The notes beneath the pieces were generated by a model, which was given only the letters and a program-made list of their open reading frames with translations, was not told the origin of the DNA and did not search any database. Of a stretch of DNA of 64,000 bases, positions 492-37,918 are shown piece after piece (position 1 is the first letter of the stretch; every line of letters begins with the position of its first letter). Source of the DNA: a virus. The DNA lies in the IMG/VR virus record IMGVR_UViG_3300031964_000005, positions 1-64,000 of that record. One strand, 5' to 3'. The position numbers and the translations under genes were made by a program.

Positions 492-1367
492 ATGGCAAAC
501 TTTACCTTTTTGTTAGCTAGCAAGAAAACTCCGTATGTACCGCCGGGTCCTCCTGATGGTACCTATGGGGTATTTGCATTGACTGTAGGCGGTGTGACCG
601 ACGTCTATACTTTTAGCACTAACGGGGTTGCCACGGGTGCTTCATTAACTGCAACTGTGGGCAACTCTGGGATGTCTGCGGCTGGCACCTATAACGTTGG
701 CATATTTTCCATTGGTGGTGGGAAGATATCCAACACTTATACCTGGAGTAGTAGTTCAATAGCTGCTGGCACTTCATTTATTAATAATGTAAGTGAAGGC
801 TTGGCTGCAGGTAATTCTACTATTGGGATTTTTGCTAGGGGTGGTGGCACGGACATCACCAATTCCTACACTTATAGTAGTGCAGTTACCGCAGCTGCTA
901 CATCTTTGAATCTATCATCATTCAATAACACAGGGGGTGCTGCGGGTAACTCAACACAGGGCGTATTCTCTGCGGGTGCTGGAGCAGGTAATGCTACTAC
1001 TTCTAAGTACCAGTATGGGGCAGCAACCGTTGCCTCGGGTACGGGCTTGGGCGTGGTTTCATCAGGTAATGGATGTGCATGTGGAAACTCTACGTTTGGT
1101 GTGTTTTTTGCAAGTAACAATGGTGTGTCTCGTGTTTACACTTATTCGTCTGATGCAGTAACTGCGGGTACTGCAACGGCGGATGTCCAAGCGGGAGCAG
1201 CGGCAGGTAATTCAAGTTTGGGTGTTATAGCTAGAGGTGCCTCCACAGCAGGCACGAACACTTACAACTATTCAACTAGTGCTGTGGCTACAGGTACCTC
1301 TTTAACCGCAGCTTTAAACCTGACGGAAGCCTGTTCTAACGGAGTCTATAATGTAAATGGTACCTAA
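492..1367 (+). CDS. Kelch-like repeat tail protein
   Basis: A 291-residue protein rich in Gly, Ser, Thr and Ala, built of about six repeats of roughly 43 residues with the pattern G-[IV]-F-x-x-G-G-x(4-6)-N-x-Y-T-Y-S, a variable stretch, then A-G-T-S-L and A-A-G-N-S. Repeats start near residues 26, 69, 113, 155, 198 and 243. This resembles kelch or beta-propeller-like repeats found in phage adsorption proteins. The last repeat is incomplete. GGAAA upstream of the ATG is a fair ribosome site, and the gene starts one base after the stop of the preceding fibre. The same repeat type forms the C-terminus of the fibre at 2874-4949, suggesting a shared tip domain. It is probably a surface-exposed accessory fibre; the function is inferred. 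Confidence 0.65.
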   Translation: MANFTFLLASKKTPYVPPGPPDGTYGVFALTVGGVTDVYTFSTNGVATGASLTATVGNSGMSAAGTYNVGIFSIGGGKISNTYTWSSSSIAAGTSFINNVSEGLAAGNSTIGIFARGGGTDITNSYTYSSAVTAAATSLNLSSFNNTGGAAGNSTQGVFSAGAGAGNATTSKYQYGAATVASGTGLGVVSSGNGCACGNSTFGVFFASNNGVSRVYTYSSDAVTAGTATADVQAGAAAGNSSLGVIARGASTAGTNTYNYSTSAVATGTSLTAALNLTEACSNGVYNVNGT

Positions 1368-1404
1368 TGGCCTGCACTCAAAACATCGGTAGCTAGGGGG
1401 AACA

Positions 1405-2004
1405 ATGTTGTTGATTGATCGTAAAACAAAAACAGTAATGTCTGAAACGGAACTTCGATTAAGACACCCATTAGTATCATTTCCGGCAGAATTAAAAGCA
1501 CATCACCTTCAAGGTTTTGACGTTGCAGAGTTAATAGCTACACCAAAGCCGCAAGCCTCAATGTTTATAACTACTGTAGAAGGCGTACCTGAGGAACAAG
1601 GAATTTCCTATGTCAAGACTTGGATTCAGACGCCAGTAACAGTAACAGAAGGGCAGAAAATTCTTCTGACCAAGGTAGCAAATAAACGTTGGCTAGCTTG
1701 TCAGGATATTGAAATCGCTATGAACGGGGCCTCACTAGTAGTCGATAACACTACGTGGCTTTATCTTAGAGACTTAGCTAATTATGGGTCCGGATCCTCA
1801 ATTGACTTCAAGGCCCCAAACAATGTATGGCTAACTATTAATCCTCAACAAGCTAACAAGTTGTGTACGGCCGTGACATCTGTTATTCAACAGAATTTCT
1901 CTAATGAGAAAGTTCATCACGAAGCAATAGTTAAGCTCACTACAGTTGAACAGTGGGAAGCCTACGATGTGACGACTGGGTGGCTCTCTAAAACTTCTAT
2001 CTAA
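1405..2004 (+). CDS. DUF4376-like tail fibre accessory protein
   Basis: 199 residues, preceded by a strong AGGGGG ribosome site. The C-terminal third (KLCTAVTSVIQQNFSNEK, then an H-x-x-I pattern and a final GW) resembles the DUF4376 domain common in proteins next to tail fibres, some of which are fibre-assembly chaperones. The N-terminal 120 residues are not recognised. Its place between two fibre-module genes fits an accessory or assembly role. The match is by pattern only, so the family call is tentative. Confidence 0.5.
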   Translation: MLLIDRKTKTVMSETELRLRHPLVSFPAELKAHHLQGFDVAELIATPKPQASMFITTVEGVPEEQGISYVKTWIQTPVTVTEGQKILLTKVANKRWLACQDIEIAMNGASLVVDNTTWLYLRDLANYGSGSSIDFKAPNNVWLTINPQQANKLCTAVTSVIQQNFSNEKVHHEAIVKLTTVEQWEAYDVTTGWLSKTSI

Positions 2005-2018
2005 TATAGGACTGCTAA

Positions 2019-2822
2019 ATGAACCTCAGCAAAGCTGTGCATCGTCTCTTGGCTGAAACTCAGGTAACTGATCCGCCAAACAATAATAAGAACTACCAGT
2101 GGCAGCGGGAAATGAAGCAGGGCTACAAAGGTAAGGCCCGAAAACCAGATCAGGTGTTGCCTGAGGGTACGTACACAAAAAGTGCTTCTGAAATTGCTCA
2201 TGTATTGAAGCAGCATTCGACGGACTACAAGCAGGCGATGTCAAAACTTTCTGGGTATATAAACAGCCAGGGGCGTAATCTTCAAGGTGGGGATAAAGCC
2301 CGTCTCTACGATGCAAAGAACGCATTACGACAAGCCTATGGGCAACCTGCAGAAACTGCTAGCGCTGGATACCCTTTATACGCACTGCCACCAGGTCATA
2401 ACCTAGATGATCCTGTAGGTGGTGGCTTAGGAATCCTAGAAGATCAATTAAAGGATTTGCAAATGCCGAATGATAAATTAAGTATCAAAGCAGCTCTACG
2501 CTTAGTTGAGGTCGAAAAACTTGAGGCCTCTATTTATAACTCATTGCAAAACCCAGGTAACAGCACGTCTATAGGTAGTGTAGAAGTTGAGGCGGATAAA
2601 TGGATTAAAGACGTGAAACCTGAACACGGAGTTGTTCCAGAAGGTACGTTCACAAAGAGCGCTGATCACATAGCAAAGACCTTGAAACGTGCATCCGATA
2701 GTGAAGCTAAAGCCATGGAAAGGTTAAATTTCTACGTTAATCGCCAGGGCGGCAATGCATCGGCCAAGGATAAATCTAAGTATGAAAAAGCAAAAGAAAT
2801 CCTGAAAGGCCTATATAAGTAA
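2019..2822 (+). CDS. Tandem DUF3175-like protein
   Basis: 267 residues with two copies of one module, near residues 46-110 and 205-267. Each copy runs PEGT[YF]TKSA..IA..LK, then A-M-x-x-L-x-x-Y-[IV]-N-x-Q-G-x-N, then a K-x-x-x-[YL]-x-x-A-K-x-x-L segment ending in a short helix. This is the pattern of the bacterial DUF3175 family (EGVF, AMSML.FYINRAG, AK.ELR), which normally has one copy per protein. The first 45 residues are basic and glutamine-rich; a linker of about 95 residues with PPGHNLDDPVGGG joins the copies. AGGA lies eight bases before the ATG. The function of DUF3175 is unknown to me; a DNA- or virion-associated role is a guess. Confidence 0.68.
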   Translation: MNLSKAVHRLLAETQVTDPPNNNKNYQWQREMKQGYKGKARKPDQVLPEGTYTKSASEIAHVLKQHSTDYKQAMSKLSGYINSQGRNLQGGDKARLYDAKNALRQAYGQPAETASAGYPLYALPPGHNLDDPVGGGLGILEDQLKDLQMPNDKLSIKAALRLVEVEKLEASIYNSLQNPGNSTSIGSVEVEADKWIKDVKPEHGVVPEGTFTKSADHIAKTLKRASDSEAKAMERLNFYVNRQGGNASAKDKSKYEKAKEILKGLYK

Positions 2823-2873
2823 GGTGCAATTTTATGACAGGGTGAGGAACAAGCAAAATACTAAGGGGTGATC

Positions 2874-4949
2874 ATGACTGCAGTTGTCCAGTTAAAAAGA
2901 AGTTCAAGTCCGGGACTAGTACCTGGATCAGATGAATTGGTAGCCGGGCAACTAGCTGTTAATTTGTCTTCAGGTTTGCTTTATGTGGGTACTGGATCGG
3001 CTATCATCCAAATTACGGGTAATGGAAGTGCTGCATCATTTACTACGTTGACGGCCTCAGGTGCCTCGACTTTAACAGCAGGAACAGCAAGCACTAGCAC
3101 TACGACAGGAACTCTAGTTATTACTGGGGGCCTAGGTATTAGTGGTGCTGTGTACGCAGGTTCTTTGCAAAATACTCCAATCGGTAGTTCTACCGCATCC
3201 ACTGCTTCATTCACCACTTTGGCTGCATCGGGGGCAGTAACAATGACCGCTGGCACTGCTTCGTCGTCCACAACGACAGGCACCTTGGTTATTACTGGAG
3301 GCCTAGGTGTAAGCGGTGCAATTAATGCTAATTCATTAACTATTGCAGCCTTGAATGGGACTCCCGTTGGCTCGACTACACCGAGTACGGGGGCCTTCAC
3401 GACCCTGACGTCCAATGGGGCAACGACTGTCACGGCTTCGACAGCCTCAACGTCTAGTTCCACTGGGGCCTTAGTTGTTACGGGCGGTGTGGGTATCGGA
3501 GGTGCGCTGAATATTGGAACCGCTTTAGGTGTAGCATCGGGCGGTACGGGGGCTGCAACGCTAGCAGCCAATGATGTATTGTTAGGTAATGGAACGTCAG
3601 CACTACAAACTGTAGCTCCAGGTACTTCTGGAAACGTATTAACATCCAACGGTACAACTTGGCAGTCGACGGCACCAAGCGGTGGTTCAGGTAGTCCTTA
3701 TTCAACTACACAGATATTCAATGGTTCAGCAACAGCTCAGGCAATCAAGCTTACTAACACCACGGACCTTGCAGATGTGGTAGGTGCAGCTCCTAGCTCA
3801 ACGCAGAATCTATATCTGGCAAGTGGTAAGGTTCAGTATTACACCACCAACGCAGCAAACAACTGGACTATAAACTTTGCGTTCTCGTCGTCGACCTCGC
3901 TGAACACTGCGATGTCTGTTGGTGATTCGATGACGGCCGTGCTGATGGCTACCCAGGGTACTACCGCATATGTTGCTAATGCGTTCGAGATAGACGGTAC
4001 AGCAATAACTCCCCGGTGGTTGGGTGGTATAACCCCGAGCACGGGTAATCAGAATGGTGTAGACCAGTACACATTCACGATTCTTAAAACAGCAAGCGCG
4101 ACCTACACGTTACTCGCATCGCTCACGCAGTTCAAAAACCCAGATGGTACGTACTCAATATTTGCCACTGGTAACACCACTACGACATCAAACAAATACA
4201 CGTATAGCGGTAACTTGGTTGCAGCCTCGACAGCAATGACGGCCAACGTTAGCAGTGGTGCGGGTGCGGGTACAAGCTCAATAGGTTATCTGGCATTAGG
4301 CGGATCGTCTGGTAGCACAACGATGAACGCGTTTACGTTTGCGACGGCTGGTGTGGTGGCATCGACCGCATTAACCGCTGTGTTGGGTGGTGGTGGGGCT
4401 GCTGGTAATACCACGGTCGGTATATTTGCAATGGGTAACTCTTCGACCACAACCAACATCCTAACCTATAGCGGTGATACCACTGCGGCAGGTACGGGGT
4501 TGACGGGCAACATGATTGCAGGTACGGCAGCAGGTAATTCGACAACCGGTATCTTTGCGATTTCGAACACGTCGGCCGCCACAGATGCTTACACATACAG
4601 CGGAAACACTGTTGCCTCCAGCACGTCTCTGAGTACCAGTGCTTATCGCGGTATGGCCGCAGGTAACGGCAACATAGGTATCTTCGCTTTAGGTAACAGC
4701 ACTTCGACGACAAACACCTTTACGTATTCTGGTGCAACAGTTGTCGCTGGTACGGGCCTAACGACCACAACGTCTTTCGGTAATGCCGCTGGCAATTCTA
4801 TGACTGGTATCTTTGCAATAGGTAACACGTCGACGACAACCAACGTCATAACCTACAGTGGTGATACGGTGGTCGCAGGTACGGTTCTAACGGCCACCCT
4901 CTTCGCAGGCGCTTCGGTCAACAATGGCAATCTCGGCGTCAACATGTAA
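2874..4949 (+). CDS. Large tail fibre with adaptor, triple repeats and kelch-like tip
   Basis: About 691 residues. I start at ATG 2874 (AAGGGG five bases upstream) rather than the GTG at 2868. Residues 1-45 (VVQLKRSSSPGLVPGSDELV, then AGQLAVN) form an N-terminal motif shared with the fibres at 8248 and 9920, probably the piece that docks to the tail. Next come three repeats of about 60 residues (TAGTAS, GTLVITGGLG[IV]SGA, then SFTTL), a spacer with pattern GTGAATLAANDVLLGNG, a middle beta domain, and a C-terminal array of about seven kelch-like repeats like those at 492-1367. The architecture fits an elongated trimeric fibre with a receptor-binding tip. Confidence 0.8.
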   Translation: MTAVVQLKRSSSPGLVPGSDELVAGQLAVNLSSGLLYVGTGSAIIQITGNGSAASFTTLTASGASTLTAGTASTSTTTGTLVITGGLGISGAVYAGSLQNTPIGSSTASTASFTTLAASGAVTMTAGTASSSTTTGTLVITGGLGVSGAINANSLTIAALNGTPVGSTTPSTGAFTTLTSNGATTVTASTASTSSSTGALVVTGGVGIGGALNIGTALGVASGGTGAATLAANDVLLGNGTSALQTVAPGTSGNVLTSNGTTWQSTAPSGGSGSPYSTTQIFNGSATAQAIKLTNTTDLADVVGAAPSSTQNLYLASGKVQYYTTNAANNWTINFAFSSSTSLNTAMSVGDSMTAVLMATQGTTAYVANAFEIDGTAITPRWLGGITPSTGNQNGVDQYTFTILKTASATYTLLASLTQFKNPDGTYSIFATGNTTTTSNKYTYSGNLVAASTAMTANVSSGAGAGTSSIGYLALGGSSGSTTMNAFTFATAGVVASTALTAVLGGGGAAGNTTVGIFAMGNSSTTTNILTYSGDTTAAGTGLTGNMIAGTAAGNSTTGIFAISNTSAATDAYTYSGNTVASSTSLSTSAYRGMAAGNGNIGIFALGNSTSTTNTFTYSGATVVAGTGLTTTTSFGNAAGNSMTGIFAIGNTSTTTNVITYSGDTVVAGTVLTATLFAGASVNNGNLGVNM

Positions 4950-4962
4950 TTAAGGAAATGAA

Positions 4963-5580
4963 ATGACAACCATGTATTCAGCTTTAGTCTACCCACTGAC
5001 CCCAGAAGGACAAGGTTATTCCAGACCTGAGCTGCCGTCGACATTCGTTAGCCAATACGGTATCAGCCCAACATGGAATCCCTATTCGGCTAATGTGGCC
5101 GACCGCACGGAATACTGGGCGGATACAGCGGGCACTCTCACCGTCGAAGAAGTAGAGATTCTGCTGATCGGCCTAACGGGTATTCAGACCGCACAGGTAG
5201 CATTGGTTAGTGCCGGATGTCAGGCCGCGATCTTCGCAGGCTTTACATCCAGTGCATTAGGTGAGGCCTACACATACCCGTCTCAGCTACAAGATCAACT
5301 GAATCTTAACGGGGAAATCACCCTGTCGCAGTTGGCTGCTAGTCAGGCGGCAGGATGGACTACTACGTTCTGGTGCGCAGACTCCACCGGTAACTGGGAA
5401 ATGCGTGCCCACACGGCTGCACAAATCCAACAGGTAGGCTCTGACTTCGTAGCTTCGAAATTGGCTAATATCCAGCAGAACATTGTGTTAGCAGGTCAGA
5501 TCATGGCCGTTACCAACGCTACGCCTAATCCAGTGGACGCAGTTCAAGCCATTGTGTGGGCTGCACCTTCTGTCGCGTAA
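4963..5580 (+). CDS. DUF4376-like protein, paralog 1
   Basis: 205 residues starting MTTMYS, with AAGGAAA upstream. It is clearly paralogous to the protein at 5936-6544: both share LVYPLTPEG, TFVS, TWNPYS, a Tyr-Trp pair, AGTLT, AAQIQQV and the ending IVWxAP. The segment AYTYPSQLQDQLNL, then W..TFWCADSTGNW and HTAAQIQQVG follows the DUF4376 consensus (YPS..DQ.NL, W...FWC.D..G.W, HT..QIQ.V). Such proteins lie beside phage fibres and may help fibre assembly or trimerisation. It follows the large fibre by 13 bases. The role is inferred from position and family. Confidence 0.66.
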   Translation: MTTMYSALVYPLTPEGQGYSRPELPSTFVSQYGISPTWNPYSANVADRTEYWADTAGTLTVEEVEILLIGLTGIQTAQVALVSAGCQAAIFAGFTSSALGEAYTYPSQLQDQLNLNGEITLSQLAASQAAGWTTTFWCADSTGNWEMRAHTAAQIQQVGSDFVASKLANIQQNIVLAGQIMAVTNATPNPVDAVQAIVWAAPSVA

Positions 5581-29504: not shown

Positions 29505-30345
29505 TTAGGACCAAATCAATATAAGAGAGGGGTCAGTTGGAACGTAGCCATTTGGTGCCGGACGTAACAAACTAATCGTATCTGGACTAAGTCTTCCTTG
29601 CATTTATGTTCCCCTCAGCTCGTTAGGCTAAAGGCGCTTGCTCGTCTTACCATCGAGTAGCTGCTCTGGCTTTCACCAGATGTTCAGACTATATCTTCAT
29701 CCTAAATTTCTAGGAGGGCTCCACTTCCCCACCACTTGGTAGGTACGGCCTTACGGCCTAGTCGTTGAACGTTCTCTTTCGAGCTTCGCTGCTGATTGCC
29801 CAATCTTCTTGATTTTCAAACCTTCACGATCTAACCATCTAACCATTTGGTGGTTACGCGTTGTGGTTCAAGAAGCTCTAAGGGGTTTCCAGCAATTCAA
29901 AACCTTATCACTTAACATTACTGCTAAGCGGCCCCAGGTAAAAAGGCGGCAAATAGTAGCCATTAGTATGTTGCTCGTCCATGACCGTCAGATTCTCTTT
30001 TCCTAGCTGTACCCACAAGTCTCTTTGCGTTACTGTTGTGGCATTATCAGGAGGTTCGGGCCACTCTTCTTGAGTGCGATAAACAATCCAGTCATCGGTT
30101 AAAGATGGGTCCCCTACTCTGCGTAAGCCCAAGGCTTTTAGTAAAGAATCGGGGGCCTCACTTTCACAAACAATAACTAATTCATCAACTGAGTGCCCCG
30201 CAATGTTCTGCAGAGCTAAGCAGTCCCTGAGAATTTGACCCTCGACTGGAGGTGTATAGTCGTCAAATAAAATACCGTAGTATTTAATAGTGGACTCTTT
30301 ATCGGGTTCTATGTCGACCCCGGTTTCTGAAGAATGCGTGTCCAT
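29505..30345 (-). CDS. Unknown protein interrupted by a group I intron (two exons)
   Basis: Exon 1 is 29944-30345 (134 codons, ending LPP) and exon 2 is 29505-29600 (31 codons plus stop, starting QGRLSP). Removing the intron 29601-29943 gives a 165-residue protein ending NGYYLPP-QGRLSPDTISLLRP and then a Gly/Tyr/Pro-rich tail. Without splicing, the frame runs on for 11 codons and stops (145 residues). The start overlaps the stop of the 85-residue gene by one base (TAATG). The product is acidic and unrecognised: it contains FDDYTPP, VIVCESEAPDSLLKALGLRR and a Trp-rich middle. It is the last gene of the portal operon and probably has a head-tail function. Confidence 0.6.
29601..29943 (-). ncRNA. 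Group I intron without ORF (subgroup IA-like)
   Basis: 343 nt. All four conserved core elements are visible in transcript order: P (TTGAATTGCTGGAAACCCC), Q (CAATCAGCAGCGAAGCTC), R (GTTCAACGACTA) and S (AAGATATAGTC). P7 pairs GACTA with TAGTC; P4 pairs TGCTG with CAGCA; P5 pairs CTTCTTGA with TCAAGAAG; a GGCC-GTAA-GGCC hairpin follows P7 (P7.1-like); P9 is CTGG/CCAG. P2 is CTTAGC/GTTAAG. P1 forms between exon GCCGCCT and intron GGGCCGC, with the U-G pair at the 5' splice site and one mismatch. The 3' end is the G of ATAAATG. No endonuclease is encoded, so any mobility would need a protein from elsewhere. Confidence 0.85.
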
Positions 30346-30602
30346 TACTTCACTCCTTTGGCTAAACTTTCAGCCTGTTCTCTGCTAATGGTTAATACCT
30401 TTGACTTATCCTCGGGAAAAACTAAACGAATTTCAGTGCCCGAAGTCGAGGGCCGAACACCAAAACGTTTTCCCTTTCCAATAGCCAGTGACTTACCTTG
30501 GAACTTAATTAGAACGGGTGAACGTCCGTGATAGGTAAACCACTGGTATTCTGGTTCAAGACTTACTGACACAGGAACTTCCTTTACTAGGAACGAATAC
30601 AT
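30345..30602 (-). CDS. Small protein downstream of portal
   Basis: 85 residues, beta-rich, with KGKRFGVRPSTSGTEIRLVF and a short helix LTISREQAESLAKG at the end. It lies eight bases after the portal C-terminal half and couples to the next gene by TAATG. No family is recognised. A morphogenesis role is inferred from operon position. Confidence 0.52.
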   Translation of the reverse strand: MYSFLVKEVPVSVSLEPEYQWFTYHGRSPVLIKFQGKSLAIGKGKRFGVRPSTSGTEIRLVFPEDKSKVLTISREQAESLAKGVK

Positions 30603-30610
30603 AGTGGTCC

Positions 30611-31516
30611 TTACATGTCTTTAACTTTTGTACGCCCGAGTTTGGCCTGATTCCTTTTCTTTAATTCTTCACGATAATGAGGATCCCTGTCCGCCTGTTT
30701 GGCAATTTTCAATATCGTGTCATTGGCCTTAGCATTACGGTCAGCCTTAGCTATTGAAGGAACATGTTTGACCTTACCCGTCTTTGTGAAGGTCCATGAG
30801 TCACCAGAGTCCCCAAACTCGCGGGCTAATAGCGGAACACGTGGACTTTGAATCATTTGACTTAGGCGTTGAGTAGTTAAACGTTCACCTGGAACCGAGC
30901 CTCTGACGTCTACACCCCGACCATCATGCGCGTTATCGTCTTCATCAGAGAACTCATGATCGTCCTCACCCTCATGGCTAGTGTCCTTACCCGTGTACTG
31001 AGCTAATTTATCGCGTAAGGCTTGGTCCTCAGATAGGTCACGTAACAATGATTCTGGATCAATTTTGGAAGCAGCCATCCACATCTTCAATGGAATAGGT
31101 ACACCCTTGTCAGAGGCTAATTCCAGGAGTTCAGCCATGTTGTCTTCACCCTTGGCTTCCAACTCCTTATGCCAGTGAAGTTGTGGCATTTTCAAGTTGT
31201 TACGATTGTTTCTGTTAAACAAAAAATCAAGTAGCTGACCACCCTTGGCTCTACCTTTACTAGGATCTTTATACAGATTATTAACAACGGCTATCAACGG
31301 AAATAATTTTGAGTTGAAAATACGTTCGGTTAAGTCTGTCCGATAGCTATTAGTTGTTTCCAAGAATAGGCTATACCCCGCTTCTTGGCTGGCATAGGTA
31401 TTATGCACAATAATACCATTTGCAATAAATGAGGGATCCTCGTCTTTAGCCATGGCTATATCATATACATGGTTTTTACCAGAGGCCTCAATTGAAACTA
31501 TTTTTACAAACTTCAT
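30611..31516 (-). CDS. Intein C-segment fused to portal protein C-terminal half
   Basis: 301 residues. Residues 1-39 are an intein C-terminal piece: VYDIAM (block F) and ANGIIVHN (block G), with the final His-Asn followed by Thr as the +1 nucleophile. Residues 40-301 are the C-extein: TYASQEAGYSLFLETTNSYR (portal-type helix region after the splice site), a basic/acidic tail with SHEGEDDHEFSDEDDN, and a C-terminal helix. GGAG sits eight bases ahead of the ATG, which overlaps the nuclease stop (TAATG), so the half is translated by coupling. Joining to the N-half (33452-34936) would give a portal of about 631 residues. The role of the portal is to form the packaging ring. Confidence 0.88.
   Translation of the reverse strand: MKFVKIVSIEASGKNHVYDIAMAKDEDPSFIANGIIVHNTYASQEAGYSLFLETTNSYRTDLTERIFNSKLFPLIAVVNNLYKDPSKGRAKGGQLLDFLFNRNNRNNLKMPQLHWHKELEAKGEDNMAELLELASDKGVPIPLKMWMAASKIDPESLLRDLSEDQALRDKLAQYTGKDTSHEGEDDHEFSDEDDNAHDGRGVDVRGSVPGERLTTQRLSQMIQSPRVPLLAREFGDSGDSWTFTKTGKVKHVPSIAKADRNAKANDTILKIAKQADRDPHYREELKKRNQAKLGRTKVKDM
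31400..31516 (-). other. Intein C-terminal segment (IntC, 39 residues)
   Basis: Blocks F and G are intact: VYDI, then FIANGIIVHN ending in His-Asn, with Thr at the next position. It is a separate reading frame with its own start. Typical split-intein IntC lengths are 35-45 residues. The partner IntN is encoded at 33452-33829. Confidence 0.9.
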
Positions 31517-33477
31517 TATTTTAACTCCGTAATGTACACGGACTGCCCTTGGTCTTGAACAGGAATAAAACCATATTTTTTCATAAGTGCATTATTAGAT
31601 TCACCCTTGCCATATATGATTCCCAATTTTTTACCAATTAATTGATCGAATCCTCGTTGGCGCAATAGGTTATCCGTGATGCGAATTCCTGATTCCGGGT
31701 TGTACCAAACAATTGAAGATTTGGGTTTATTTTTCTGGATAAATCCTAATTTAGTGTAGATAGCCCCAGAAAATTTGGATAAATCACAATAGCTTATTAC
31801 TGAACCTGTTAAATACTTATTAGCTGCGGACCACAATTTTTGAGAGCCACCAACAACTAAAGAAGAAAAACATAAACGTAATAGTTCATAATCAAATTTC
31901 TTGTTATAACGAGGATTCCCAAATGTCATGACTCCAACTAGTCGATTATTATTTTCTGCTGTTGTAACATAAAGTCCTAAAGCTAAATCGGTTCCTCGGC
32001 AGGATCCCTGCATATGATATTTCTCACAGAATTTATCCGCTGTTTCTTTGGTTATGATTGATATTTTAGTTTTTCTAGCATAAATTATTTCTTTTTCTTT
32101 CGAAATTATAAGAGAAAGCTTTTTCAAATCGTCCCATGGGTAAAATACAATAATTCTACCTTTCGGAAGTCTAACGTTAGCTAATGCACAGTGGGATGCT
32201 AAATAATAGTCAGGAGCTAATTTAAACCATCCACTCTTGACCCTGCTATGTTTAGCGTTAAACAGTTTGGCTATTTGAGTATAGAACCAAACATGAAATT
32301 GCTCGATATTAAACCACTCTACAAAAGATAGGTTTTTGTTTTTAGCAGTTTTTCTTTTTAACGGATCTAGTTTAGTCCATATTTTCAATGTCAGAGCTGG
32401 AGCCCAGCCTTCTTTTGTACTTAAGTCAGCAACTTTTAGCTTATGCTGTTTATTGTTTTTGTCATAAGCTTCGTCACCATGTGTAAAGTAACCCTGGTAT
32501 TCAAATATAGTATCTGAGTCGGGATCATAGAAATCAGCTTCCCATGGGTAATCCGGGTGGTCTCTATACAAGTATTCTACCTGACACCCCAGTAAAGATC
32601 TAAGACAGTGGAGGATGTATTGCTCTTGTTTATTAGTTGTGTACGTGCCATTAAGTTTTTTAGTTGCATGGCCTTTCCAAGCAACCTCTTTAGGCGTCGT
32701 ATTATTTTTTATTTTAGTAGCGTTGGACTTTAGACGCCCTATTTGCCTAAACTTTTCCCTAGCCTTGTCTACAAACTCTTTAACTTGCATTGGTTGATCA
32801 GTACCATATTCTTTTATCATGGTTTTCTTATACTCAGCATTAGCGCTAGGACTTGCTCTTCCCATACCGCCATGACGTTCAGTATAAGTAGCTACGGTTT
32901 TCGCTGCAATTTGTGGGTTCATTGTAGCGTTATGAAAACCATAAAGTTCCACATTTGTAGCCTCAGCTTTGGCCCTAAAAACACTACCGCTAACTAGGGA
33001 GCATGGAATTCCATGCTCCCTCAGCATAGTCTCTCGGGCTTTGACCTGACGTTTCTTGCCGTAGTCCAGACCATGAGTCTCAATTAGGGTGATCTCACGT
33101 TTCAATGCAGCCTTTGCATAGGAATCATTAGCTTTAGCCGTTGCCTGGATTCTACTTCGAATATCTGCTTTTTTCTCCTCCGAGAAATTAGCTTTGGTGT
33201 CTCTAAGTTTAGTCCCTGACAAATGTTTCTCTTCAGGACTACGATTTTTACGGGACGTCGCTATCTTTTCATGATATGCAAATTTATCTTCCGGGCTTAA
33301 ATTATCATGGCGATAAGACACACTATGCCCTTTACAGCAAAACACAGTGCGTAGTCCAGCTGTAGCTTCATCGTAGTCCCGTCTAGTCTTATATATTTCG
33401 TGAGTCTCTGAAATGATTTCATTGCAGTAAGAACATTTTAAAGTTTTTATTCTAGCTGCTGACGGTGGTCTGGGCAT
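31516..33477 (-). CDS. Free-standing zinc-finger nuclease between portal halves
   Basis: 653 residues. The N-terminal finger is LKCSYCNEI followed by a Cys-Cys and His cluster (FCCKGH). A long basic region (85-250) holds repeats of the NUMOD/DNA-binding kind. The nuclease core is EADFYDPDSDTIFEYQG, then THGD and KIWTKLD..KRK: Asp, Glu, Gln and Lys are spaced as in Vsr-like/PD-(D/E)XK homing nucleases. The C-terminal domain has FCEKYHMQGSCRGTDLALGL, VGVMTFGNPRYNKKFDYELL, a GG-S-Q-K-L segment and DLSKFSG, a domain shared by phage endonuclease genes. Its start overlaps the IntN stop by 26 bp; its stop overlaps the IntC start. It probably spreads the interrupted gene. Confidence 0.82.
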   Translation of the reverse strand: MPRPPSAARIKTLKCSYCNEIISETHEIYKTRRDYDEATAGLRTVFCCKGHSVSYRHDNLSPEDKFAYHEKIATSRKNRSPEEKHLSGTKLRDTKANFSEEKKADIRSRIQATAKANDSYAKAALKREITLIETHGLDYGKKRQVKARETMLREHGIPCSLVSGSVFRAKAEATNVELYGFHNATMNPQIAAKTVATYTERHGGMGRASPSANAEYKKTMIKEYGTDQPMQVKEFVDKAREKFRQIGRLKSNATKIKNNTTPKEVAWKGHATKKLNGTYTTNKQEQYILHCLRSLLGCQVEYLYRDHPDYPWEADFYDPDSDTIFEYQGYFTHGDEAYDKNNKQHKLKVADLSTKEGWAPALTLKIWTKLDPLKRKTAKNKNLSFVEWFNIEQFHVWFYTQIAKLFNAKHSRVKSGWFKLAPDYYLASHCALANVRLPKGRIIVFYPWDDLKKLSLIISKEKEIIYARKTKISIITKETADKFCEKYHMQGSCRGTDLALGLYVTTAENNNRLVGVMTFGNPRYNKKFDYELLRLCFSSLVVGGSQKLWSAANKYLTGSVISYCDLSKFSGAIYTKLGFIQKNKPKSSIVWYNPESGIRITDNLLRQRGFDQLIGKKLGIIYGKGESNNALMKKYGFIPVQDQGQSVYITELK

Positions 33478-33829
33478 TATTAACTTCCTGTTCTTCTTCG
33501 TCTACCGCAATTAAATCACCTTCTTTTAGCTCGTCTAGACGTTTCCATTTAGTAGTTCCGTCTTCACATAAAACAAAAAATGGATGATTTTCAGTCCCTG
33601 TGACTTGTTTACCATCTTCCGTGGTTACCGTAAAAGTTTCCCTATAACCTTGATATGACCAAGCTTCAGTTTTAGCAGAATTCGAAATTCGATTGGGTAG
33701 TTCTAAATTTAGAGGAAACCACTGACCTTTCTTTAGTTCATGAGGTGCTAGACCATGGATAGGACTTAGGCTCTCTATACTCGTGGTCGTACCATTCTGA
33801 AGTTTAATTTGGGTAGAGCCTATCAAACA
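33452..33829 (-). other. Intein N-terminal segment (IntN, 125 residues)
   Basis: Starts with Cys at CLIGSTQIKLQNG (block A), has GTENHPFFVL (block B with T-x-x-H), followed by LDELKEGDLIAVDEEE, and ends in VNNAQTTVSS and a stop. There is no homing domain inside. Its stop codon lies in the first codons of the 653-residue nuclease gene. Residue 1 Cys, TxxH and the matching IntC show all parts needed for splicing. Confidence 0.9.
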
Positions 33830-34936
33830 GGCTTCCTGACTCATGAATGATTCACTGGCACCTAAAGCCCTTAACTTATAGGGAACAAATATATCAGCCA
33901 TATCAGAAAACTTAAAAAAATCTCCGCCAGGCCTGAGATCAACTGCTTGCACTGCGTTACGTGTAGATATCCAACCACCTAAAGGATCATATTCAGCCTG
34001 TTGAAAAGACTGTACCAATTGATTCAATTCTTCTGATGTAGGAGTCCATGTATCGTCACCGGCCGTCAAATGTGTCATTGCCCGTTGACGTCTTTGAGTC
34101 TCAACTAAGGTTCCACGAAACAGAGTCTTCTCAATCAAATACATCGGAAGAATACGGTGTAGAAACGATGTATAAGCTCTATCCGTTGTGGATCGACGTG
34201 GAATAAACATCGTGGTCACTGGATCTAATGTAAATGCACCGCTTTTCAACATGTCGACAAACTGATGAGGCATTTGCTGCAGATATCGACGTGCGTATTC
34301 TGATGTATCGTGCATGAACTGCTGTGTTGCTTGGCCAACCCGCACATTAATCGTAGGGTCAATTCCAAAGAACGGTGAGGGAATAACTGCACAGGACAAG
34401 GCATCGTGCAACATCGTGTCTATAAACTGTTTGGACTTAGGATCGAATACTAAGGAGCCACAAAAGAAACCATCAGTTAAATGGGCGGTGCTGATTAAGG
34501 GTAGCATCGTCTGAATATTCAACCTTTCTAATGCGTCATTGAAAGGTTTTAAATCTTGAGCATCCAGGCCTCTGAGTTCCCAACTGGAGAATGGGAAATG
34601 CGACAATATGTCAACTACTGACCCGCCGACACTATCGAACATATAAATATCTCTGTAGAACAGAGCTAACGTTGAGGTATCAATAAGATGGGGGTCTGCC
34701 GGGATAATCCCTGTCATGTAGTACTGGTAATTAGATTGCCAGAAACCATTAACAGACATAGAGGCTCCACCACCGCCACTACTCCCCACTACATTGGCAC
34801 TCAACTTTACTTTTGAGCCATCATCACGGCCTTTATAACTACGCATGGCTACAGAGGCTCCGTTATTACCAAACACCTGATGACTCATGTTGATGGTCTT
34901 TCCATTGACCCCCAACAATCTATTATTTGTGAACAT
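33452..34936 (-). CDS. Portal protein N-terminal half fused to intein N-segment
   Basis: 494 residues. ATG 34936 with AGGA five bases upstream is preferred; an upstream ATG at 34987 overlaps the preceding nuclease gene. N-extein residues 1-369 include NVNG, a MTGIIPADPHLIDTSTLALF segment, VDILSHFPFSSWELRGLDAQ, and near the splice site PLGGWISTRNAVQAVDLRPG and ALGASESFMSQEA, a portal-like signature. The intein N-segment follows. It is placed five genes after TerL in the packaging operon. Trans-splicing with 30611-31516 would make the complete portal, the ring through which DNA passes. Confidence 0.86.
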   Translation of the reverse strand: MFTNNRLLGVNGKTINMSHQVFGNNGASVAMRSYKGRDDGSKVKLSANVVGSSGGGGASMSVNGFWQSNYQYYMTGIIPADPHLIDTSTLALFYRDIYMFDSVGGSVVDILSHFPFSSWELRGLDAQDLKPFNDALERLNIQTMLPLISTAHLTDGFFCGSLVFDPKSKQFIDTMLHDALSCAVIPSPFFGIDPTINVRVGQATQQFMHDTSEYARRYLQQMPHQFVDMLKSGAFTLDPVTTMFIPRRSTTDRAYTSFLHRILPMYLIEKTLFRGTLVETQRRQRAMTHLTAGDDTWTPTSEELNQLVQSFQQAEYDPLGGWISTRNAVQAVDLRPGGDFFKFSDMADIFVPYKLRALGASESFMSQEACLIGSTQIKLQNGTTTSIESLSPIHGLAPHELKKGQWFPLNLELPNRISNSAKTEAWSYQGYRETFTVTTEDGKQVTGTENHPFFVLCEDGTTKWKRLDELKEGDLIAVDEEEQEVNNAQTTVSS

Positions 34937-34946
34937 AGTAGTCCTA

Positions 34947-36557
34947 CTAAATTGGGTTATAGATAAAGGTAGCCTGCCCCTCATCATATACAGGTATAAA
35001 TCCGTGACTGGTCATGAGCTCAGCGTTATTAGTGCCTTTTCCATAGACAGTATTTATTTTAGAACCCACGAGTTGATCAAATCCTCGTTGACGTAATAGG
35101 TTATCAGTTACATGGCGTCCATTTAGCGGGTTATACCAATGAAGACCTGGGATTGGGGTTCTCTTGAGCTTGAAACCTAATTGTCTATAAACGTTACCGT
35201 TAAATTTGGAGAGATCACAATAGGATATTACTGAAGGGTTGCCTAATTTGGAGACTGCGAGTTTCCACATTCTAGAGGACCCGCCGACTATGGCTGAGCT
35301 GAAACACAAGCGTAATAATTCATAGTCGAAATTCTTGTTATACCGAGGGGTCCCAAAGGTCATGGCCCCAATTATTCTATGTCCTTGAACCAAAGCTATA
35401 GATAGAGTAGTTCCCCGACATTTACCCTGCACGTGATATTTGGCACAGAATTGATCAGCTATATCGTTGGGTATTACGCACACCTCTAATTTACGAGCGT
35501 ACATTACGTCTTTTGGTAGCAGAAGTTTAGCCACCTTGTTGACGTCTTCCCAGGGATAGAATGTTATAAGATCAGGGTACTTATTCAATAGGCGGGCACG
35601 TAATAGCTCGTCGTAAGCACACAGTACTTGAGATCCAAATTTGTAGGCCAGTCCTTTTGATTTATCGGAGCCAAGGTGTTGAGCAAGGAATGTCGAATAC
35701 CAGGTCTCAAACTGTTCCTCAGTAAACCATTCAACAAAGTTGATATTGGATTTACGAATAGCCGCTCGTTTCTGCGGATCGCTACTAGTCCATATCTTTA
35801 AGGTTAATTTAGCAAGCCATTTATCGGTCTTGGCCCTGAGTTTTAACTGCTTGACCCTTAACGCATGTTCGGACGATTGAGAGTCATAGGGAGCACCACC
35901 GTGCGTCATGAAGCCCTGATACTCAAATATAGTATCTGAGTCGGGGTCGTAAAAATCAGCGGCATAGGGATAGCCCTCACGCTTCCTATACTGATATTCT
36001 AAGTTCGGCAATACTCGACGCAGCTTATGAAAAATTCTTAGTTCAGGCTTGCTCTGGTTATAAGAACCCCGGTTCTTCATTGTCTCATGGCGTTGGCTAG
36101 AACTATCATTTTGTACACAGCCAGTAGAAATGGTGGACCTACGTTTGAGTTTCTGTTGGTGGGTACGATGCTCATTGATATAAAGCTGAGCATGATTAAG
36201 ACTGCAAAAGACGTTGATTAATCCAGCCTTTGCTTTGTTATAGGCACCTATTGTTTTGTAGGCTTTGTGACCTAGATGTATAGGGGTGCCGCAATGATTA
36301 CATTTTAGATCGTGTGCTGGTATTGGTTTGCTACGTGCAGCACTTGTCTTTGCACCAATATCGGCTAATTGTTCAGGAGTTCGCTTTGCATTGTTGAACA
36401 ACGTAGCATGACTCAAACAACAAAATGCCAACTTGTTACCAGTCTTTACCTTGGTGTACTTGCTCAACTTAGAATAGGCTGAATGAGTTTCCGGCAAGGA
36501 TCCACCACAATAGACACAGGTTAGATCACGCGCATAAGCCTCTGGCTTGGTACTCAT
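34947..36557 (-). CDS. Second free-standing zinc-finger nuclease (paralog)
   Basis: 536 residues, a paralog of the nuclease at 31516-33477. It has two N-terminal fingers, CVYCGG and CNHCGT, each followed about 30 residues on by FCCLSH or FCSLNH. The core AADFYDPDSDTIFEYQG, THGG and KIWTSSD matches. The C-terminal domain repeats FCAKYHVQGKCRGTTLSIAL, IGAMTFGTPRYNKNFDYELL and SYCDLSKFNG. It ends ten bases before the portal N-half. It may cut intron/intein-less alleles; no intein is linked to its upstream side. It shares a genomic location with the split portal and might be a second invader. Confidence 0.78.
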   Translation of the reverse strand: MSTKPEAYARDLTCVYCGGSLPETHSAYSKLSKYTKVKTGNKLAFCCLSHATLFNNAKRTPEQLADIGAKTSAARSKPIPAHDLKCNHCGTPIHLGHKAYKTIGAYNKAKAGLINVFCSLNHAQLYINEHRTHQQKLKRRSTISTGCVQNDSSSQRHETMKNRGSYNQSKPELRIFHKLRRVLPNLEYQYRKREGYPYAADFYDPDSDTIFEYQGFMTHGGAPYDSQSSEHALRVKQLKLRAKTDKWLAKLTLKIWTSSDPQKRAAIRKSNINFVEWFTEEQFETWYSTFLAQHLGSDKSKGLAYKFGSQVLCAYDELLRARLLNKYPDLITFYPWEDVNKVAKLLLPKDVMYARKLEVCVIPNDIADQFCAKYHVQGKCRGTTLSIALVQGHRIIGAMTFGTPRYNKNFDYELLRLCFSSAIVGGSSRMWKLAVSKLGNPSVISYCDLSKFNGNVYRQLGFKLKRTPIPGLHWYNPLNGRHVTDNLLRQRGFDQLVGSKINTVYGKGTNNAELMTSHGFIPVYDEGQATFIYNPI

Positions 36558-36572
36558 GAATATTTGAGTCCT

Positions 36573-37079
36573 CTATTTCCGGTGTAGGCGATTGAACATA
36601 GCATTGCGGAACGCCAGTCTAATTATCAGCTCAATATTGATGCTAGCTTCTATTTCTTTATGCTTGGATTTGCGTTCTATATGCAATCTAGGTTTGCCGT
36701 AAGTATGAGTTGCTTGTGTAATCAACATGACACCAATACCATCTTCTTTTGGTATTGAGTCCTGCACTTTGGCGTAGACCTCAGGACTCATTGCAAAATA
36801 AAATTTATTTGCGAATGGCAAGTAGTTATGCCATTTCTTGTCTGATTTGAAATCAGAAACTGAGCTTTTAATTTCTATTACCGTAGTGTCACCAGCAAAG
36901 GTCAGGGCTAGTATGTCAGCCCTTAGTTTTCCATATTTGCACAACCCTACTTCTGCGTTAACCGCCATATTCTTGTCTAAGCAATACTGAATAACAACAG
37001 CCTTTATTTCGGCCGCAGTTAGTGGTAGTTTAGGAGGGATTGGAGTAATTGGAACGGTTGATACATTTGGTGTACTCAT
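36573..37079 (-). CDS. MmcB-like PD-(D/E)XK protein
   Basis: 168 residues. GKLRADILAL, DTTVIEIKSSVSDFKSDKKW, then YLPFANKFYFAMS matches the MmcB family pattern (RaDvlal..., vvEiKss..DFr.D.KW..Y....d.fyFav). MmcB is an SOS-associated DNA repair protein in alphaproteobacteria. The Asp and Glu-x-Lys triad suggests a nuclease fold. Operon position between a disordered protein and the second nuclease suggests DNA processing. Family call moderate; source could be horizontal. Confidence 0.68.
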   Translation of the reverse strand: MSTPNVSTVPITPIPPKLPLTAAEIKAVVIQYCLDKNMAVNAEVGLCKYGKLRADILALTFAGDTTVIEIKSSVSDFKSDKKWHNYLPFANKFYFAMSPEVYAKVQDSIPKEDGIGVMLITQATHTYGKPRLHIERKSKHKEIEASINIELIIRLAFRNAMFNRLHRK

Positions 37080-37918
37080 CTCTGTAGGAATTGAATAGCT
37101 TCTTGTTTCATACGTTCATAGGTATCTTGAACAGAGGATCCAATACGAGTCCGACTATCGATCTGGACTTTTTTGAACGACACCAATTGTTCTTGGCTTA
37201 TGCCTATGGATTTCAGATCGTCGTACAGTAATTGATATTCTTTCATGATGGACATCGCTATTTCTTGCATAGCCGGACGAATAACGGATTCTACAAGATT
37301 GACACCTATAGCCCCTCGATCCTGAGTTGCTTGAAGATCAATCATCAGTTCGCGGATAGACTGAATTAATCCGTTGAACGAATGAACACCGTAGCGCCCC
37401 TGGCTTTCACGGATACCCGCTTCCACTTCAGATATCAGGTCAATACACGTTTGTATCAAGCGCTTGTTCAGCATCGTTATTGCTGAGTCGCTATCACCGT
37501 CTTCTAGCAGTTGCTGGAGTGCTTCAGCGTCCTCACCAACAATAGATGATCTAGCACCTTTACTTAAGCGTGAACTTCTACGGGTGCCTGCACCCGTGCT
37601 CACAACATTGGTGACTGAAGCCGTCGTAATTGAGGCCCTAGGTCTTTTGGGCTTTACCGTAGCTACTGATGTGGGTGCATCTTCAGCATTCTTTGACCTA
37701 AGCCTACGTTTAGGTTTGGGTGGTTTAGGCCTATCATAGACCTCTTCGTCATCTTCAAAAGTGGATCTAGCGCGTTTTTCCTCTGGCTTAGATTTTTTTG
37801 AATTCTTTTCCGACTGAGACTTGGAATCTGTACTCGATTTGGGGTCGCGCTTTGATTCCTGGCCTTGGGAAGGGTTCCTGATATCAAACGACATATCGGG
37901 TTTCTTGTTATTGAGCAT
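37076..37918 (-). CDS. Hypothetical protein with disordered basic N-terminus
   Basis: 280 residues. The first 130 are Lys/Arg/Ser/Pro-rich (PKPPKPKRRLRSKN, RRSSRLSKGARS), likely disordered and nucleic-acid binding. The rest is helical: MLNKRLIQTCIDLISEVEAG, SFNGLIQSIRELMIDLQATQ, and IMKEYQLLYDDLKSIG. AAGGAG precedes the ATG and the stop overlaps the next start (ATGA). No known family is recognised; it may be a portal- or packaging-associated factor. Confidence 0.52.
   Translation of the reverse strand: MLNNKKPDMSFDIRNPSQGQESKRDPKSSTDSKSQSEKNSKKSKPEEKRARSTFEDDEEVYDRPKPPKPKRRLRSKNAEDAPTSVATVKPKRPRASITTASVTNVVSTGAGTRRSSRLSKGARSSIVGEDAEALQQLLEDGDSDSAITMLNKRLIQTCIDLISEVEAGIRESQGRYGVHSFNGLIQSIRELMIDLQATQDRGAIGVNLVESVIRPAMQEIAMSIMKEYQLLYDDLKSIGISQEQLVSFKKVQIDSRTRIGSSVQDTYERMKQEAIQFLQR

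Follow-up and report, generated by a model that had tools for sequence, protein, structure and literature searches.

We analyzed a window of 64,000 nucleotides (positions 1 to 64,000 of the 106,655-base IMG/VR virus record IMGVR_UViG_3300031964_000005) in which the gene for the phage portal protein appears as two open reading frames (ORFs), each carrying one part of an intein, with a gene for a putative free-standing homing endonuclease between them. The genes of the locus lie on the minus strand, in the order MmcB-like gene, HE1, portal N-half, HE2, and portal C-half. The portal N-half starts with an ATG at position 34936, just downstream of an AGGA, and encodes a portal N-extein of 369 amino acids (33830-34936) that continues into an intein N-segment of 125 amino acids (33455-33829) with its own stop (TAG, 33452-33454). 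HE2, the putative endonuclease gene (31516-33477), encodes 653 amino acids; its ATG sits 26 bases inside the ORF of the N-half, and its stop shares one base with the ATG of the next ORF (TAATG). This third ORF, with GGAG just upstream, encodes an intein C-segment of 39 amino acids (31400-31516) and then the portal C-extein, 262 amino acids plus stop (30611-31399), of which the first residue is Thr. The coordinates and lengths that an initial annotation of this DNA had given were exact to the base on re-reading, and so were the two overlaps of the nuclease gene with its neighbors. Each of the three ORFs is preceded by a Shine-Dalgarno-like stretch.

The segments between the two exteins carry the hallmarks of a class 1 intein, in which position 1 is Cys or Ser, block B contains TxxH, the C-terminus is His-Asn, and the +1 residue is Cys, Ser, or Thr. 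All of these positions can be read in the window: the N-segment begins with Cys1 and contains TENHPFFVL (TENH in block B), and the C-segment contains NHVYDIAM and ends in FIANGIIVHN (with IIVHN last), followed by Thr at +1. Profile comparisons confirmed this earlier reading of the segments, with the N-segment scoring 33.2 bits against TIGR01445 (cut-off 24.5) and 36.1 bits against PF14890 (cut-off 35.8), and the C-segment 26.5 bits against TIGR01443 (cut-off 15.6); the match of the C-segment to PF14890 is partial (19.8 bits) and falls under the cut-off of 35.8. The extein gene is thus divided inside the intein into two ORFs bearing its N- and C-segments, the arrangement by which a fractured gene is recognized. 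The residues SQEA are repeated on both flanks of the insert, with 9 of the 12 bases alike.

The two exteins match the portal family phrog_16240 back to back, the N-half over profile positions 27-377 (E 2.9e-129) and the C-half over 377-638 (E 4.6e-61), so that the joined portal has neither gap nor repeat. The closest named phages are BcepSauron and Motura (263- and 221-kb records), whose portals are single annotated coding sequences. When 50,697 phage records were searched with tblastn, 91 contained the N-half and 90 the C-half; we inspected a part of these. No solved structure was related to the portal by sequence at E values up to 0.1, and we used a model of the intact portal of a relative (locus L082, mean predicted local distance difference test score (pLDDT) 67.4) rather than the halves of the window to assess the fold. 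In a fold search with this model, each of the 50 matches shown was an entry for a portal, neck, connector, or virion from tailed viruses or their kin (Z 14.6-18.1, root-mean-square deviation (rmsd) 3.7-11.2 Å); the portal assignment of the window is accordingly supported by a whole-length family match and by the fold of an intact relative. The junction corresponds to residue 367 of L082, which the model places in a loop (pLDDT about 59) ahead of a long helix (residues 369-406), and the aligned ranges of the matches extend across this residue. As the junction falls inside the matched portal domain, neither half would make a complete fold by itself, and this favors ligation over two separate chains.

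If an intein had entered a once continuous portal gene, relatives with the site empty might be expected. The initial annotation had pointed to the junction SQEA/TYAS as the place to look for an uninterrupted copy, and relatives indeed align exactly across it (GISESFLSGDA/SYASAES). A first scan yielded 41 loci, three of them from this virus and 38 from others (several being near-copies), and in 37 of the 38 the N- and C-portal lie side by side, the remaining one (L019) running off its contig edge. We sought a match to HE1 or HE2 in the available DNA of these 38 loci and found none. The gene order around the portal (280-amino-acid gene, MmcB-like gene, portal, 85-amino-acid gene, 145-amino-acid gene) is kept in most loci, the MmcB-like gene or another not being found in some. 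A wider survey, which overlaps the first, covered the best 80 of 143 confirmed relatives together with locus L061 and three named records, or 84 loci, including repeats such as BcepSauron (L095, L152), Motura (L109, L153), PaBG (L150, L154), and near-copies such as L084-L087. Coverage by these scans was incomplete, as L061, whose DNA encodes a pattern peptide, was absent from the portal scan results. By our rule, 75 of the 84 loci are continuous with the site empty, four are fractured (L061 and L079-L081, the latter being this virus), one carries a contiguous intein (L139), and four are unscorable. The unscorable loci are L090, at a contig end; L102, where the frame ends 147 codons beyond the empty site; L134, open for 303 codons past the empty site with a weak C match; and L154 (PaBG, stored reversed), whose portal is one annotated gene and whose phage is scored continuous as L150. 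A complete lack of continuous homologs, on which the initial annotation would have given up its reading, is the opposite of what these relatives display.

The same arrangement occurs in a second, separate phage. Locus L061, which lies on a 62-kb contig, encodes a portal N-half with intein N-segment and stop, a nuclease, and an intein C-segment with portal C-half, in the order originally described for the window. Its portal halves match phrog_16240 at 43-383 and 382-640, the N-half ending in SGDASFASAE and the C-half beginning with SAYSTFLE, and its intein C-segment ends in FIANGVVVHN. Its intein parts score above the cut-offs of TIGR01445 (46.7 bits) and TIGR01443 (22.0 bits) but below that of PF14890 (33.8 and 17.6 of 35.8 bits). 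Overall, the L061 intein is 54% identical to that of the window over 164 residues (55% in the N-segment and 72% in the C-segment), and its nuclease (461 amino acids, or 468 with an upstream ATG) is 49% identical to HE2, rising to 65% in the core. The L061 nuclease lacks the C-terminal domain found in HE2, and no HE1 lies upstream of the L061 portal; therefore, neither is essential to the arrangement. Shine-Dalgarno-like stretches precede the three ORFs here as well. The nearest portal relatives of L061 have an empty site.

These observations bear on whether the arrangement is real and functional. The locus is known from metagenome contigs alone, as might suit a broken pseudogene in a defective phage or an assembly artefact. 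Nevertheless, four contigs agree, since three further ones (L005, L006, and L007, the second a contig of 230,110 bases), from samples that may or may not be independent, share 11.5, 13.1, and 8.2 kb with the window at 100% identity; with a different virus, L061, in the same arrangement, assembly error is unlikely. Moreover, no part contains stops or frame breaks, and a scan of the 230-kb record (which may be incomplete) for a second whole portal half that could stand in found none, the portal-like pieces outside the locus comprising 67 residues at 31% identity (G001:90976) and 44 residues at 37%. Between the window and L061, the proportions of nonsynonymous and synonymous differences (pN/pS) are 0.30/0.73 for the intein N-segment, 0.14/0.90 for the intein C-segment, and 0.23/0.96 for the nuclease core, with synonymous sites saturated or nearly so. 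These codon changes fit purifying selection on the intein segments and the nuclease core, and we regard a pseudogene or artefact as very improbable. The same pattern speaks to the idea that splicing has been lost and that the portal is built from two non-covalent chains. Split proteins can sometimes complement each other, but the class 1 catalytic positions are present in both viruses, pN lies far below pS in the intein segments, and the junction falls inside the matched portal domain, just before the long model helix. We therefore consider permanently separate halves improbable, if the least so of the alternatives.

A contiguous intein in the same portal family provides a further comparison. 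In L139 (IMGVR_UViG_3300011934_000017), the portal gene is one open stretch of 1021 codons with a 476-residue intein that contains a LAGLIDADG_3 domain. This is how a true cis-splicing intein looks in this gene, and it speaks against the idea that the window encodes a single precursor, made by frameshift or readthrough, which splices in cis and in which the nuclease is simply an internal domain. The window ORFs do overlap, by 26 bases and by 1 base, and in L061 the frame of the nuclease stays open as far back as 5161, 18 bases ahead of the stop of the N-half (5177-5179), so that a shift there is conceivable. However, the ATGs of that frame (5209 and 5230) come after the stop, Shine-Dalgarno-like stretches lie ahead of the starts in both viruses, and two shifts would be required, so that we assign this possibility only a small probability. 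L139 is the next closest by score to both fractured inteins (86 and 94 bits). A tree of 13 intein splicing domains was unresolved and did not place L139; its rows are a biased sample, fetched by intein, nuclease, or portal queries.

The three inteins sit at neighboring rather than identical positions. The window intein follows SGDA, that of L139 lies three codons further on (SGEANYA/TADSS), and that of L061 six codons further on (SGDASFASAE/SAYS); in the intact L082 portal, the three sites follow residues 367, 370, and 373. We considered a single insertion site with a duplicated flank in the window and L061, and rejected it, as the joined stretch SE...(F/I)(L/I)E spans 23 residues in the window, L061, L139, and intact relatives alike. 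It is possible, though on balance doubtful, that the short conserved portal stretch S-x-D/E-A-S/T-Y/F-A-S-x-E is an intein hot spot and that a free-standing nuclease, whose target is not bound to the intein boundary, lets a fractured element re-enter beside its old site, shifting the insertion point. If this were true, fractured inteins could move their insertion point, unlike ordinary allelic inteins.

The distribution of the cassette is scattered. A portal tree built from 42 chosen rows places L061 beside the intact L091, L116, and L093, and the window elsewhere; a tree with the window and L061 as portal sisters was rejected (log-likelihood 154 lower, approximately unbiased test p-value=1.6e-88). 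The inteins of the window and L061 are nevertheless nearest to each other among the 13 compared. Cassettes scattered over the portal tree with mutually nearest inteins fit mobility.

The candidate agent of such mobility is HE2, which we assign as a putative homing endonuclease on the basis of PF24308, phrog_3339, phrog_559, and phrog_1384, a comparison of domains, and a fold search. HE2 comprises a Cys-pair N-terminus, a DUF7487 stretch (residues 146-243, E 4e-12), a putative nuclease core (residues 261-389; 32311-32697, minus strand), and a C-terminal GNAT/Mom-like domain (residues 468-653; 31519-32076, minus strand). Its match to phrog_3339 'homing endonuclease' (E 1.4e-35) runs mostly through the C-terminal domain, with a weaker N-terminal stretch. 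The initial annotation had called HE2 a zinc-finger nuclease; the 653-residue ORF between the halves stands, and the label itself reflects a sequence pattern and a family name owed mainly to the C-terminal domain, a GNAT-fold domain absent from that account. The core, delimited by motif (EADFY...EYQG..THG), contains five residues (E285, D315, E326, H333, and D339) that are invariant in all three relatives aligned (HE2, HE1, and the L061 nuclease). Vsr-like and EDxHD enzymes use E, D, H, and D as catalytic residues in a Vsr-like fold, a pattern which the HE2 core recalls. EDxHD enzymes are described in PMC3943268 as homing enzymes of phages, with target sites almost 60 base pairs long. Aligned to E. 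coli Vsr with hhalign, the core gave a weak match (E 0.038, probability 1.4%) that puts D315 and H333 on the D and H of Vsr and leaves E285 off its E. The AlphaFold model of HE2 has usable confidence only in the first 70 or so residues and in the C-terminal domain, and the core region is mostly below a pLDDT of 50; with so weak a profile match and so poor a core model, kinship with Vsr was not established. Searches for solved structures related to HE2 by sequence (E up to 1) returned none, and of 35 stretches in genomes of bacteria and archaea that fitted a pattern of the nuclease, none was confirmed as a relative.

The C-terminal domain of HE2 is better defined. In a VIA-align comparison, its model matches phage Mu Mom (8bv8) with Z 14.1, 160 aligned residues, 4.0 Å, and 20% identity; this Z is tied with those of other GNATs, but Mom has the most aligned residues and the highest identity among the 50 rows. 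Together with the match to the Mom-like phrog_1384 (E 1.4e-7), the model identifies a predicted GNAT fold related to Mom. The same domain occurs in phage records that carry the annotation homing or Hef-like endonuclease, and elsewhere in this virus as a free-standing ORF (L057:1183-1995; G001:C1:196344). HE1 (34947-36557, minus strand; 536 amino acids) belongs to the same family as HE2 and lies between the MmcB-like gene (36573-37079, minus strand) and the portal, ending 10 bases ahead of the portal start. HE1 and HE2 are 46-49% identical over their common part (50% in the core, 56% in the GNAT domain). Because the cores of HE2 and the L061 nuclease are 65% identical, compared to 50% with HE1, the data fit a scheme in which HE2 and the L061 nuclease represent one cassette gene and HE1 is a separate relative that shares its C-terminal domain with HE2; HE1 may still have a part in the cassette. 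Unannotated relatives of these nucleases also occur at several places per genome in Prevotella Lak phages (L077 and L078), with repeats like KYGVENPMQ. Both L077 and L078 contain in-frame TAG codons, in keeping with the recoding known for Lak phages.

A third mobile-type element lies nearby. A group I intron (RF00028, 81.4 bits) at 29601-29943 (about 343 bases with approximate ends; Rfam match 29664-29952, minus strand) interrupts the gene two places downstream of the portal, between NGYYLPP and QGRLSPD, a site that is continuous in L008, L010, L017, L061, and L093. HE1, the fractured intein with HE2, and this intron thus lie within 7 kb. In locus L091, the same gene is interrupted about 18 bases further on by a related group I intron (83.8 bits), which is 74% identical to that of the window over 154 bases; this pair of introns is displaced by about as much as the cassettes of the window and L061 are. 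Nucleases are known to serve introns in trans (collaborative homing), and HE1 or HE2 could serve the group I intron in this way. With an intron interrupting a gene only about 0.7 kb downstream of the portal, one might ask whether the portal interruption is likewise removed from RNA. Since Rfam gave no match in 30000-37200 even at E 1, and the flanks of the nuclease gene encode an intein, we consider this the least probable of the alternatives, with next to no weight.

Inteins and portal-like pieces were also seen elsewhere. In the same virus, a GyrB-like gene (assigned by motif; L156:926-3970, minus strand; G001:C1:37500-43000) has two mini-inteins in one frame of 1015 codons. The first starts with Cys, ends VLVSN/T, and has 148 amino acids; the second recalls class 3 inteins in that it starts with Pro (GPFIGDTQ), contains a Cys within VYCLTV, and has VSSN/C at its end. 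The large terminase genes (phrog_17415) of two portal relatives contain contiguous inteins (L130:962-4693 and L138:1105-4695), and a gene without assigned function in a viral contig has two (L069:4156-8187). A short portal-like segment (approximately portal residues 262-335) lies inside another frame of 247-280 codons, at G001:C1:90976-91173 and in BcepSauron (NC_049851, 118592-118879).

Overall, we put the probability at about 0.9 that the portal gene of this virus is fractured, with the portal restored by protein trans-splicing and the nuclease providing mobility. We propose that an intein entered a conserved stretch of a jumbo-phage portal gene and that its frame is split by a free-standing nuclease gene. 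Three proteins would be made from three adjacent starts: portal-N with the intein N-segment, the nuclease, and the intein C-segment with portal-C. The intein segments would associate, fold, and excise themselves (Cys1 start, His-Asn end, Thr at +1), joining the portal halves into a 631-residue portal without a scar. The nuclease, dispensable for splicing, would cut uninterrupted portal genes of co-infecting relatives, and repair would copy the whole cassette in. Its place outside the intein would release it from the constraint of the splicing frame, and perhaps also from that of the precise site of insertion. Several findings weigh against parts of this proposal. Divergence between the window and L061 is about the same in the inteins (identity N 55%, C 72%) and nucleases (49%) as in the portals (N 70%, C 58%), and therefore no recent transfer can be pointed at; past horizontal moves or an old insertion with repeated losses would both do. 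Simple allelic homing does not account for the distance of 18 bases between the two cassettes. The L082 portal model is moderate, also in the ten residues at the junction, and the rmsd is large in many of its matches. As to the nuclease, HE2 owes the label of homing endonuclease mainly to its C-terminal domain, its likeness to Vsr is weak, and its AlphaFold model (mean pLDDT 51.6) did not recover a nuclease fold; the L061 nuclease had no PHROG match at E 0.01 and matched only DUF7487 in Pfam.

Both packaging and ejection of the phage genome take place through the portal ring. If each of its subunits were welded from two polypeptides, virion assembly would depend on protein trans-splicing. Two fractured inteins in one gene and a contiguous one nearby form a natural series from contiguous to fractured, and the inteins of the window and L061 are two natural candidate split inteins for protein engineering. 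The arrangement itself is familiar from other genes: Dassa et al. in 2009 reportedly described fractured genes in environmental viral sequences, with the host gene cut inside an intein and a nuclease ORF between the halves. The window is alike in both respects and differs in that its host gene encodes a virion structural protein, that its nuclease has Cys-pair, DUF7487, and GNAT/Mom-like parts, and that a second related nuclease lies upstream. A further fractured gene occurs among the portal relatives: in L132 (IMGVR_UViG_3300000033_000014; 1205-4645), whose portal is continuous, it is the large terminase gene that is split, into halves with intein-like ends on either side of a small HNH-type ORF, and the nuclease is a different one. 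Its terminase halves match phrog_17415 at 36-188 (best stretch) and 474-906, and its intein N-part scores below the TIGR01445 cut-off (21.1 bits). The L139 intein has splicing parts homologous to those of the window (30% identical over 196 columns, E 3e-25), in the same portal family and three codons apart; unlike the window, it is one ORF with a LAGLIDADG nuclease inside the intein. A contiguous terminase intein is also reported in PMC8228797. Among published systems, the split PolB intein of the Pseudomonas jumbo phage MIJ3, with an HNH endonuclease between its halves (PMC6892783), has the same arrangement of intein halves on two ORFs around a nuclease gene, as the initial annotation had recognized for the window, and differs in its host gene and in a nuclease called HNH. 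The initial annotation knew of no portal example. Portal inteins as such are not new, since cluster C1 mycobacteriophages have them in their portal proteins (six listed in PMC5050341, which does not use the term 'split intein'), in a different phage group and in contiguous form; the fractured form was not found in our literature searches and is new as far as these went. The shifted insertion sites are the part that may go beyond the fractured genes known so far.

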